This document shows positions 11,656 through 16,385 of a stretch of DNA of 53,497 nucleotides, one piece after another. The notes below the pieces were generated by a model. The model was given only the letters and a program-made list of their open reading frames with translations, was not told where the DNA came from and made no database searches. The position numbers and the translations under genes are program-made. Numbering within the stretch: position 1 is the stretch's first letter; the number at the start of each line of letters is the position of its first letter. Source of the DNA: Omnitrophica bacterium GWA2_41_15 (GTDB taxonomy: Bacteria; Omnitrophota; Gorgyraeia; Gygaellales; Profunditerraquicolaceae); NCBI GenBank assembly GCA_919901915.1, contig CAKKQB010000026.1:1-53497 (forward strand). The letters run 5' to 3'.

Positions 11656-11760
11656 TTTTTTGCAAAGCAAAAAATGGTAGAACAATAGAGCAATAGACAA
11701 TAGAGCAATAGAAAAACAAAAACTCAATTGCGGTCTATTTTCTATTGCTCTATTGTTCTA
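11653..11760. repeat. Two perfect hairpins between tRNA genes
   Basis: The first (11653-11677) has 11-bp arms CCATTTTTTGC / GCAAAAAATGG around AAA. The second has 19-bp perfect arms at 11678-11696 and 11742-11760, built from CAATAGA-type units of seven or eight bases, around an AT-rich loop. This is the inverted-array layout seen in other gaps of this window. The first could slow transcription, but it lacks a T-tract outside the stem. Confidence 0.8.
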
Positions 11761-11846: not shown

Positions 11847-11917
11847 GCGGGAGTAGTTCAATGGTAGAACAACAGCCTTCCAAGCTGTATATGGGGGTTC
11901 GATTCCCCTCTTCCGCT
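11847..11917 (+). tRNA. tRNA-Gly (TCC)
   Basis: The acceptor GCGGGAG pairs with CTTCCGC (one G-T pair). The anticodon loop CTTCCAA carries TCC, and the T arm contains GGTTCGATTCC. Discriminator T. It ends eight bases before the start codon of the PilZ-GpsA gene. Confidence 0.95.
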
Positions 11918-11925
11918 TTATAAAC

Positions 11926-13326
11926 ATGGAATATATATATAGAGATTCGGAACGCAGGAGATTTGTAAGATTAGGGCGCGTAACTCCTATTGATTACAAA
12001 ATTTGTAAAGAAAAGGCTATTTTAAAATTATTAGAAGGTTATACGGTAAATATAAGCCAGAGCGGATTATTCTGCAATATAAGAGAGAAGGTTAACAAAG
12101 GCGATATCGTCTGGCTTTCTTTTGACCGGCAAACTTTACATATTTACGAAGAAATTGAAAAACGAGTTTTAATCCACCAAAATGGCGTCCTCGGAAAAGT
12201 AGTCAGGATCGAACCAAAGAAACACGGCTCATACGGCATAGGAGTTCAGTTTATCATCCGCCATGAAAATAATTTAGCTGATTTTTCATTATTCGGAAAG
12301 AAACTCCCAAAAATCCAAAAAAATAAAGAAACAAAATTAAATATCAGCGTCTTAGGCGATGGCGGCTGGGGCACAACGCTAGCAATTTTACTTTCCAAAA
12401 AAGCCTTCAAAGTGACTATCTGGGGGGCATTCGCGGATTATGTTTCCCATGTTGATAAAAAAAGAGAAAATGAAAAATTTCTTCCCGGAATCAAGATTCC
12501 CAAGGAGATAGAAATTACCCACGATTTAAAAAACGCTCTTGAGAAAAAAGACCTGATAATCCTGGCGATACCTTCTCAACATATCCGGAAAACCCTTATA
12601 AAAATTAAACAATTGGGTAATTTTAACCAGACAGTATTTTTAAGCGCCAGCAAAGGCATAGAAATCGAATCCCTTAAACGGATGTCTGAAGTAATACAAG
12701 AAGAACTGGGTAAGGTAAAACTGGCAGTGCTTTCCGGCCCAACTATTGCCCATGAGGTAGCTACTGGCATTCCTACGGTGGCTGTAATCGCGGGCGCTGA
12801 TGAAGAAGTAAGAAAATATCTACAGGGTATTTTTACGACTAATAGATTCAGAATTTATACCAACGAAGATGTAACTGGAGTTGAATTAGGCGGCAGCCTT
12901 AAGAATATCATTGCCATAGCCTGCGGCATTTCCGACGGGCTTGGCTTTGGCGCGAACACCAAAGCCGCTCTTTTATGCCGAGGGTTAACTGAAATTTCCA
13001 GGCTTGGGGCTGCTATGAAAGCTAAGGTAAGCACGTTCAGCGGAATAAGCGGATTAGGTGATTTAGTAACAACCTGTGTTAGCCCTTATAGCAGAAACAA
13101 ATTTGTAGGCGAACAAATCGGCAAGGGCAAATCATTAAAACAAATTCTCTCGCATATGCAGATGGTAGCGGAAGGAATACCTACTACAAAATCGGCGTAT
13201 TTATTAAGCTTAAAACATAATGTAGATATGCCTATAACCAAGGAAATCTACAATGTCCTTTATAAAAACAAGTCTCCTCTTTTAGCCCTTGAAGATTTAA
13301 TGACAAGGGAGAGAAAAGAGGAATAA
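11926..13326 (+). CDS. gpsA: PilZ domain fused to glycerol-3-phosphate dehydrogenase [NAD(P)+]
   Basis: The C-terminal 330 residues are a complete GpsA, which makes sn-glycerol 3-phosphate for phospholipids. They show the NAD motif GDGGWGTTLA from about residue 144, the SASKGIE strand, SGPTIAHEVA, the catalytic lysine in GGSLKNIIAIACG and TFSGISGLGDL. The N-terminal 115 residues form a PilZ domain: ERRRFVR carries the RxxxR c-di-GMP signature, NISQSGLF the (D/N)xSxxG signature, then VLGKVVRIEP and GIGVQF. A short linker (about 116-137) joins them without a stop. Standard GpsA is about 330 aa, so the 466 aa fusion is unusual and suggests c-di-GMP control of lipid precursor supply (inference). 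No ribosome site is visible between tRNA-Gly and the ATG. A stand-alone PilZ gene lies downstream. Confidence 0.93.
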   Translation: MEYIYRDSERRRFVRLGRVTPIDYKICKEKAILKLLEGYTVNISQSGLFCNIREKVNKGDIVWLSFDRQTLHIYEEIEKRVLIHQNGVLGKVVRIEPKKHGSYGIGVQFIIRHENNLADFSLFGKKLPKIQKNKETKLNISVLGDGGWGTTLAILLSKKAFKVTIWGAFADYVSHVDKKRENEKFLPGIKIPKEIEITHDLKNALEKKDLIILAIPSQHIRKTLIKIKQLGNFNQTVFLSASKGIEIESLKRMSEVIQEELGKVKLAVLSGPTIAHEVATGIPTVAVIAGADEEVRKYLQGIFTTNRFRIYTNEDVTGVELGGSLKNIIAIACGISDGLGFGANTKAALLCRGLTEISRLGAAMKAKVSTFSGISGLGDLVTTCVSPYSRNKFVGEQIGKGKSLKQILSHMQMVAEGIPTTKSAYLLSLKHNVDMPITKEIYNVLYKNKSPLLALEDLMTRERKEE

Positions 13327-13331
13327 AAAGA

Positions 13332-13387
13332 TAGCGTATAGCGGATAAATAAAAGCAAGTAAATTTTCTACTATACGCTATACGCTA
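13332..13387. repeat. Inverted heptamer array before tRNA-Pro
   Basis: TAGCGTA TAGCGGA on the left face TATACGC TATACGC TA on the right across a 26-base AT-rich spacer. It occupies the whole gap between gpsA and tRNA-Pro. Same family as 15189, 16331 and 48349. Confidence 0.85.
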
Positions 13388-13521: not shown

Positions 13522-13887
13522 ATGACATATCAGGGCATAGAAAGGCGCAAGCATCCGCGAATAAGCGGACGCTTCATTGTATCATACCGGATATTAGAAA
13601 ACGCGGACGCGGAAAGCAAAAGAGATATAACCCAAACCAAAAATATTAGCCTTGGCGGAATGCTTCTTACCACAAACAGGGGATTTAGGCCCAAGACAAG
13701 CCTTGCTATAGAAATCAGGCTGCCTTTTGACCCTAACCCTATAATGCTAATCGGCAGGGTTATTGAATCGCGTCAAATTGTAGAGAATTTAATTTATGAC
13801 ACCCGGTTAATGTTCCTTGCGGTAGACGAACAACACAGGCATGCCATTGAACAAACCGTTAGACATCACACAAAAAAAGAGGACTAA
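13522..13887 (+). CDS. Stand-alone PilZ domain protein
   Basis: This 121-residue protein is almost entirely one PilZ domain, a c-di-GMP receptor. It shows ERRKHPR (RxxxR) near residue 8, NISLGGMLL ((D/N)xSxxG) near 43, and the strand LIGRVIESR. A good ribosome site, GGAGGTG, precedes the ATG. TATAAT at 13505-13510 directly abuts that site, so transcription from it would leave almost no leader; I do not count it as a proven promoter. It follows tRNA-Pro and precedes hom by two bases. With the PilZ-GpsA fusion upstream it forms a pair of possible c-di-GMP receptors; its target is unknown. Confidence 0.88.
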   Translation: MTYQGIERRKHPRISGRFIVSYRILENADAESKRDITQTKNISLGGMLLTTNRGFRPKTSLAIEIRLPFDPNPIMLIGRVIESRQIVENLIYDTRLMFLAVDEQHRHAIEQTVRHHTKKED

Positions 13888-13889
13888 GC

Positions 13890-15185
13890 ATGAAAAAAAT
13901 AAATCTAGGCCTCATAGGATTTGGCAATGTGGGTTCAGGCGTGGTAAAGATTCTACATGAAAGAAAAACTTTTTTAAAAGATAAGATAGGAATAGAAATA
14001 AATATTAAAAAAATATGCGACAAAGATATCGCTACTAAAAGAAACATAGGCCTTGACAAACAACTACTTACTAAAAACGCCAGCGACATCATAGATGACC
14101 CGCAGATTGATATTGTAATTGAATTAATAGGCGGAATTCACCCCGCGAAAGAATTTATTATTGAAACCTTAAAAAAAGGAAAAAGCGTAGTAACCGCCAA
14201 TAAAGCGCTCCTCGCGCAGTATGGCCAGGAATTATTTGCCTTGGCTCTTGACCACAGCAAAAATATTTATTTTGAAGCTTCGGTTGGCGCGGGTATCCCG
14301 ATAATAAAATCCCTGCGTGAAGGGCTCGCGGCAAACAAGTTTAATAGTATTTTCGGAATTTTAAACGGGACATCCAACTTCATACTTTCCCGAATGTCGG
14401 GGGAAAATTGTTCATTTGAAGACGCGCTCAAAGAAGCGAAATTAAAAGGTTTCGCGGAAAAAGATCCTACCCTCGATATAGAAGGCATTGACTCAGCGCA
14501 TAAATTAGCGTTACTCGCGTATCTATGTTTTGGAAAATTAGTAAAATTAGAAAACATATCTATTGAAGGGATTTCCCAAATATCACTTTCTGATGTTAAT
14601 TACGCGCATGAATTAGGATTTGAGATAAAATTATTAGCGATTGCCAAAAAAGAAAGCGATGAGCTGGAGATCAGGGTTCATCCGACACTTATACCGAAAA
14701 CACATCTTTTATCATCGGTAACCGCGGTTAATAACGCGATTTACGTATCTAGCGACTTAGCAGGCAATCTTCTATTTTATGGACCAGGAGCAGGTCAACT
14801 TTGCGCCGCTTCCGCGGTAGTCGCGGATGTGATAGACTTAATTCAAGATATCAAAGCAGGCCTTTTCAGGCCAACTTTAAATATCATACCTGACAAATCC
14901 ATAAAAAGACTGCGCAATATTAATGAATTTGAAAGCAGGTGTTATGTTCGCCTAATGGCCGTAGATAAACCAGGAGTCCTGGCAAAGATTTCCGGAATAT
15001 TGGCTAAACTAGGAATCAGCATCGCTTCTGTTACGCAAAAAGAGAGAAATAGGGCCCATATAGTTCCAATCGTAATGATAACACACGAAGCAAAAGAAAA
15101 GAATCTACGAACCGCGCTTAACTTAATAGACCGATTAGACGCGATTAAAGAAAAAACAGTAGCAATAAGAATAGAGGACGTATAA
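13890..15185 (+). CDS. hom: Homoserine dehydrogenase
   Basis: Hom reduces aspartate semialdehyde to homoserine, the branch point to threonine and methionine. Motifs are the Rossmann GFGNVGSGV, VVTANKALLA with its catalytic-region lysine, GILNGTSNFIL, and EKDPTLDIEGIDSAHKL. A C-terminal ACT domain (about 350-425, VDKPGVLAKISGILAK) implies feedback control by an amino acid, commonly threonine. Length 431 aa is normal for the monofunctional ACT-containing form. GAGGA ahead of the ATG is the ribosome site. It heads the threonine block with thrC, the apgM homologue and lysC. Confidence 0.96.
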   Translation: MKKINLGLIGFGNVGSGVVKILHERKTFLKDKIGIEINIKKICDKDIATKRNIGLDKQLLTKNASDIIDDPQIDIVIELIGGIHPAKEFIIETLKKGKSVVTANKALLAQYGQELFALALDHSKNIYFEASVGAGIPIIKSLREGLAANKFNSIFGILNGTSNFILSRMSGENCSFEDALKEAKLKGFAEKDPTLDIEGIDSAHKLALLAYLCFGKLVKLENISIEGISQISLSDVNYAHELGFEIKLLAIAKKESDELEIRVHPTLIPKTHLLSSVTAVNNAIYVSSDLAGNLLFYGPGAGQLCAASAVVADVIDLIQDIKAGLFRPTLNIIPDKSIKRLRNINEFESRCYVRLMAVDKPGVLAKISGILAKLGISIASVTQKERNRAHIVPIVMITHEAKEKNLRTALNLIDRLDAIKEKTVAIRIEDV

Positions 15186-15188
15186 AAA

Positions 15189-15243
15189 TAGCGGATAGCG
15201 TAGAGCGGATAGTTTTTTCTATACACTATACGCTATACGCTAA
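15189..15243. repeat. Inverted heptamer array between hom and thrC
   Basis: TAGCGGA TAGCGTA GAGCGGA TAG on the left pairs with TATACAC TATACGC TATACGC TA on the right. The right arm ends seven bases before the thrC ATG, where a ribosome site would be expected. None is visible. Confidence 0.88.
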
Positions 15244-16330: not shown

Positions 16331-16385
16331 TAGCGTATAGCGTTTAGCGAATAGTAAAAACCTATACGCTATACGCTATACGCTA
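16331..16385. repeat. Inverted heptamer array between thrC and coaB
   Basis: TAGCGTA TAGCGTT TAGCGAA TAG faces three TATACGC units plus TA across a spacer of about nine bases. It ends four bases before the coaB ATG and fills the gap. Confidence 0.9.

Follow-up and report, generated by a model that had tools for sequence, protein, structure and literature searches.

Results

A PilZ domain and GpsA in a single reading frame

The window, by which we mean the whole 53,497-nt stretch of DNA analysed here, carries a gene in which a PilZ domain is joined to a glycerol-3-phosphate dehydrogenase (GpsA). The features that bear on this gene, all on the + strand, are as follows.

11847..11917, +: tRNA-Gly(TCC), found by ARAGORN and Rfam
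11926..13326 (stop included), +: pilZ-gpsA fusion gene, 466 aa, a single open frame; the same fusion is present in a second species
11950..12258, +: PilZ domain, aa 9-111; PF07238 match, with the motif intact in 48/48 orthologues
12259..12336, +: linker, approximately aa 112-137 (~25 aa), variable in sequence and length, predicted to be flexible from pLDDT and from comparison with the second species
12337..13323, +: GpsA, aa 138-466, complete; PF01210 and PF07479 matches, match to the solved structure 1z82, single match in the genome
13481..13510, +: promoter-like TTAACA-18-TATAAT upstream of PilZ2; 11/12 consensus positions, the best site of the region, by consensus match only
13522..13887, +: PilZ2, a second, stand-alone PilZ gene, 121 aa; PF07238, 36.2 bits
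13890..15185, +: homoserine dehydrogenase gene (hom), assigned from sequence and synteny

The initial annotation had described a complete PilZ domain continuous with a complete GpsA, and this description holds: translation of 11926-13326 (+) gives 466 codons without an internal stop, Pfam matches all three domains within this one frame, and every c-di-GMP motif residue is kept. Eight nucleotides separate the end of the tRNA-Gly from the start codon, and no ribosome-binding-like motif is seen before it; several ordinary genes here likewise have none. Since ATG, GTG and TTG are all absent from the linker in this genome, GpsA alone would not easily be made in this organism, and the fusion is the only expected form.

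By domain and motif tests, the GpsA half is a complete NAD(P)H-dependent glycerol-3-phosphate dehydrogenase. Pfam places NAD_Gly3P_dh_N at aa 140-294 (158.9 bits) and NAD_Gly3P_dh_C at aa 315-454 (185.3 bits), the NCBIfam model of the GpsA subfamily, NF000942, scores 412 bits over aa 139-466 (cut-off 257), and the solved GpsA 1z82 aligns end to end with aa 137-466 (E 3.8e-69). The nucleotide-binding GxGxWG-type motif is present, as are the conserved residues of KGIE, KN, GDLVTTC and SRN. GDGGWG, K243, K326-N327, D379, T382-T383 and R390-N391 are invariant in an alignment of 26 sequences; catalytic roles are known for residues of these motifs in GpsA. The enzyme is thus like other members of NF000942 and its solved relative 1z82 in being complete with conserved motifs, and differs from them in its added N-terminal PilZ domain and linker. 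The window's genome, 96% complete, shows no gpsA other than the fused gene. PlsY is also encoded in this genome, on another contig than the fusion.

The PilZ half has the sequence features of a c-di-GMP receptor

PF07238 matches the fusion with 39.8 bits against a cut-off of 22.5, and the c-di-GMP motif is present as RxxxR (R11, R15) and [N/D]xSxxG (N42, S44, G47). We use the name PilZG for the stand-alone orthologue of the fusion's PilZ region (residues 1-120). All 48 PilZG orthologues match PF07238, and in all 48 sequences R11, R15, S44 and G47 are invariant while position 42 is N or D. The fused proteins of the two species differ at a few usually conserved positions (C74 to Y, Y18 to R). 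The window's genome has 8 PilZ and 9 GGDEF domains, and GGDEF domains occur in 108 of 108 genomes of the family; their presence suggests a host that makes c-di-GMP. Judged by its motif, the PilZ domain of the fusion most likely binds this messenger. It shares both the RxxxR and [N/D]xSxxG motif and an above-cut-off PF07238 score with known PilZ receptors such as YcgR, PlzA and the C-terminal PilZ domain of BcsA, and differs from them in having a soluble enzyme of lipid-precursor synthesis as its output partner and an extra helix (aa 68-77) in its model.

This model of the PilZ domain is mostly beta (pLDDT 77), with the helix lying between strands. A Foldseek search with it returned no match at an E-value of 0.001 or better; all scores were weak, c-di-GMP-bound BcsA (4p00) having the highest probability among the matches listed (0.60), with PP4397 and MotI weaker. 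A profile search of PDB sequences with the PilZ domain found no PilZ. The two-domain model of the fusion is good for GpsA but poor in confidence for PilZ, and no contact between the domains can be claimed from it. Given these weak fold matches, the PDB profile result and the poor PilZ half of the fusion model, structure carries no claim here. The predicted unstructured stretch at aa 112-135, where pLDDT falls below 50, supports a flexible tether and says nothing on contacts.

Two further open frames came up in these domain searches. Another PilZ match in the window's genome (G000:C12:14835-15119) lies in a 677-aa open frame and is possibly a further PilZ fusion, and a GGDEF match in a relative (G017:C2:82064-82540) lies in a 70,450-aa open frame that is either a giant protein or a contig oddity.

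The fusion occurs in a second species and both halves are maintained

The fusion recurs, likewise in one frame and 78% identical, in Candidatus Omnitrophota isolate Yes70-23 (G006), a separate MAG from a second species of the genus. The initial annotation had allowed that relatives might have separate genes and that the fusion might be an assembly artefact. Relatives do indeed have separate genes, as described below; an assembly artefact is ruled out by the identical arrangement in the second MAG. Between the two species dN/dS is ~0.09 for the PilZ half and ~0.12 for the GpsA half (Nei-Gojobori; dS is ~1, near saturation), whereas the linkers are 44% identical with gaps and differ in length. 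Both halves are maintained under purifying selection while the linker drifts. The linker of the second species keeps an ATG at the position where gpsA begins in relatives, which could allow a certain amount of GpsA to be made in free form.

A separate, overlapping PilZG-gpsA pair is the older arrangement

We searched for PilZG in other genomes with a closer subset of PilZG proteins as the query, the alignment of all PilZG being too diverse; the named relatives are nearly all Omnitrophota. Within the family, PilZG mostly stands as a gene of its own, ~120-170 codons long, with gpsA following directly. Among 58 distinct unfused loci, 56 have a spacing of -23 to +15 nt between the PilZG stop and the start of gpsA, the genes usually overlapping by 4, 8, 11 or 14 nt, and the overlapping genes are probably translationally coupled in most relatives. 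The pair is also found outside the family, in five others (f2, f8, f36, f40 and f50). By contrast with this wide distribution of the pair, only the two species described above, among 384 genomes drawn from the phylum, showed a PilZG domain within an open frame longer than 450 aa, and the ~150 GpsA open frames among the matches listed phylum-wide are all at most 378 aa. On these sequence comparisons the overlapping PilZG-gpsA pair is older than the fusion, which is confined to one genus and does not represent a general architecture. Most relatives have the two genes overlapping in different frames, and a small indel would then be enough to fuse them.

Two wider patterns were considered and rejected. 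Frames of 458-516 aa in six genomes (G020, G072, G102, G103, G026 and G107) resembled independent fusions; each has a stop between the genes or, in G072, a frameshifted PilZ. Weaker PilZ matches (27-41% identity) in f9, f15, f17 and other families had no gpsA in the flanks fetched, which argues against a phylum-wide pairing of PilZ with gpsA.

The association between the two genes is not absolute. PilZG is absent beside an intact gpsA in G035, G062, G074 and most of genus g55, and at these loci the order thymidylate synthase-like gene, gpsA, PilZ2, hom, thrC is kept where it can be read. Conversely, G279 has a PilZG orthologue (G279:C63:8448-8789; L070, L041) with 56% identity and an acidic tail but with no gpsA downstream, and no GpsA was detected in the whole of this 95% complete genome. 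In G072 (locus L004), PilZG is frameshifted after ~92 codons beside an intact gpsA, which may reflect a decaying copy or a sequencing error.

PilZ2 is coupled to hom within a conserved block

The initial annotation had also noted a second PilZ gene nearby and read it as part of a local c-di-GMP theme. PilZ2 is a real PilZ gene by its Pfam score, but it is probably a unit separate from the fusion: it lies behind a tRNA and the promoter-like site, and it is coupled to hom. From the PilZ2 stop to the hom start is -4 to +4 nt in most loci, in the window and its relatives, such that PilZ2-hom (13522-15185) is a possible parallel pair of a PilZ protein with a metabolic enzyme. The coupling of PilZ2 to hom is as tight as that of PilZG to gpsA, which makes coupling by itself weak evidence, not specific for GpsA. 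Moreover, the order thymidylate synthase, PilZG, gpsA, PilZ2, hom, thrC is conserved in relatives as a whole block, and being neighbours is therefore not enough to establish a functional link.

In most relatives the thymidylate synthase-like gene (PF00303) precedes PilZG, and in G006 it comes directly after tRNA-Gly. It is gone from this site in the window's genome, leaving the fusion 8 nt after the tRNA, and the rest of that genome yielded no relative of the G006 protein.

Discussion

The fusion, together with the overlapping neighbour genes of relatives, suggests, without proving, that c-di-GMP tunes membrane-lipid synthesis in these uncultured Omnitrophota. The reading that we favour, and which we consider nearly as probable as its opposite, is that PilZ and GpsA form a regulatory pair of old standing in one part of the Omnitrophota, joined here into a single chain, with c-di-GMP tuning GpsA. 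Most relatives encode a small PilZG just upstream of gpsA and overlapping it; in this genus the stop codon and the frame offset would have been lost, joining the two proteins through a flexible linker. The PilZ domain would bind c-di-GMP and, so bound, might contact the tethered GpsA and alter its activity or assembly, so that c-di-GMP would set the supply of sn-glycerol-3-phosphate to the acyltransferase PlsY and hence phospholipid synthesis. The effect might be either activation or inhibition. The narrower proposal, that c-di-GMP controls GpsA directly and allosterically through a dedicated PilZ subunit, conserved in part of the Omnitrophota and covalent in one genus, is possible but leans to the doubtful side.

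A regulatory pair is supported by the one-frame fusion in two species with no second gpsA, by the coupled arrangement at 56 of 58 loci, by the intact motif and the purifying selection on both halves, and by the presence of GGDEF proteins and PlsY. It is weakened by the several losses of PilZG with gpsA retained, and by the genome that has PilZG without a detected gpsA. The fusion is more specific evidence than gene adjacency, but it comes from one genus.

These same weaknesses speak for a near-neutral origin of the fusion, which we judge rather doubtful but a serious contender. PilZG would then have another target and share an operon with gpsA by history or expression level, a small indel would have joined the overlapping genes, and the PilZ domain would bind c-di-GMP for its own purpose with GpsA as a mere carrier. 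Ancestral overlap makes such joining cheap, restriction to a single genus fits an event of this kind, and the conservation of the whole block from thymidylate synthase to thrC, with an equally tight coupling between PilZ2 and hom, means that adjacency need not reflect function. Nonetheless, gpsA stays immediately downstream of PilZG across several families though the flanks vary, as with the thymidylate synthase-like gene lost from the window's genome, and the fusion involves the sole GpsA copy and has been kept to 78% identity under purifying selection.

PilZ proteins commonly act through protein contacts, and a c-di-GMP-bound PilZ domain might instead recruit GpsA to the membrane, to PlsY or to a surface structure; glycerol-3-phosphate would then be made at its place of use, with catalysis unchanged. 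The predicted flexible linker would suit such tethering better than tight allostery, and PlsY is present; however, the fusion sequence shows no membrane segment or targeting signal and plsY is on a different contig, and we consider this explanation unlikely. Least likely, and in our view very improbable, is that the PilZ domain is degenerate or non-binding, or that the fusion is an artefact of assembly or frame reading. The start codon 8 nt after a tRNA with no ribosome-binding-like motif, and the C74 to Y and Y18 to R changes in the fused pair, could be taken in its favour, but the fusion is common to two separate MAGs, all motif residues are kept, dN/dS of the PilZ half is 0.09, and a motif of this kind is missing from several ordinary genes here as well.

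c-di-GMP is best known for effects on motility, surface polymers and gene expression. If the regulatory reading is true, c-di-GMP control of GpsA would be a direct second-messenger switch on membrane-lipid synthesis, with a receptor on the phospholipid-backbone enzyme tying membrane growth directly to a lifestyle signal. The initial annotation knew of no characterised protein with this architecture, and we likewise found none among open-licence papers, whether as a PilZ-GpsA fusion or as a gene pair, although absence there is not proof; nor did we find open-licence papers on c-di-GMP in Omnitrophota. The nearest parallels are of two kinds. CsdK1 and CsdK2 of Myxococcus xanthus are PilZ-DnaK chaperones (PMC10313047), and like the fusion described here they place a PilZ domain on a housekeeping protein, a chaperone in their case and a metabolic enzyme in ours; the fusions are unrelated. 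In Borrelia, the PilZ c-di-GMP receptor PlzA affects expression of the glp operon (PMC8929704), which also ties a PilZ receptor to glycerol and glycerol-3-phosphate metabolism, but PlzA is a separate protein acting on expression and is not fused to GpsA. The PilZG-gpsA pair offers many natural variants, fused, separate and with PilZ lost, for comparison in vitro.

Repeat elements

Besides tRNAs, no riboswitch or other RNA family was found within the window. An intergenic repeat, ATACGCTATACGCTA, occurs at 13332-13387, 15221-15242 and 16331-16385 in 7 copies (at most 1 mismatch; 0 expected), with copies inverted at two of the three sites. The inverted repeat at 11685-11753, ATAGAGCAATAGA, is a different one. 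In two relatives (L012 and L035) GpsA itself has in-frame inserts that translate as PACRQAG / PACRQTGLPAGQAG, in the manner of a palindromic repeat element invading coding sequence.
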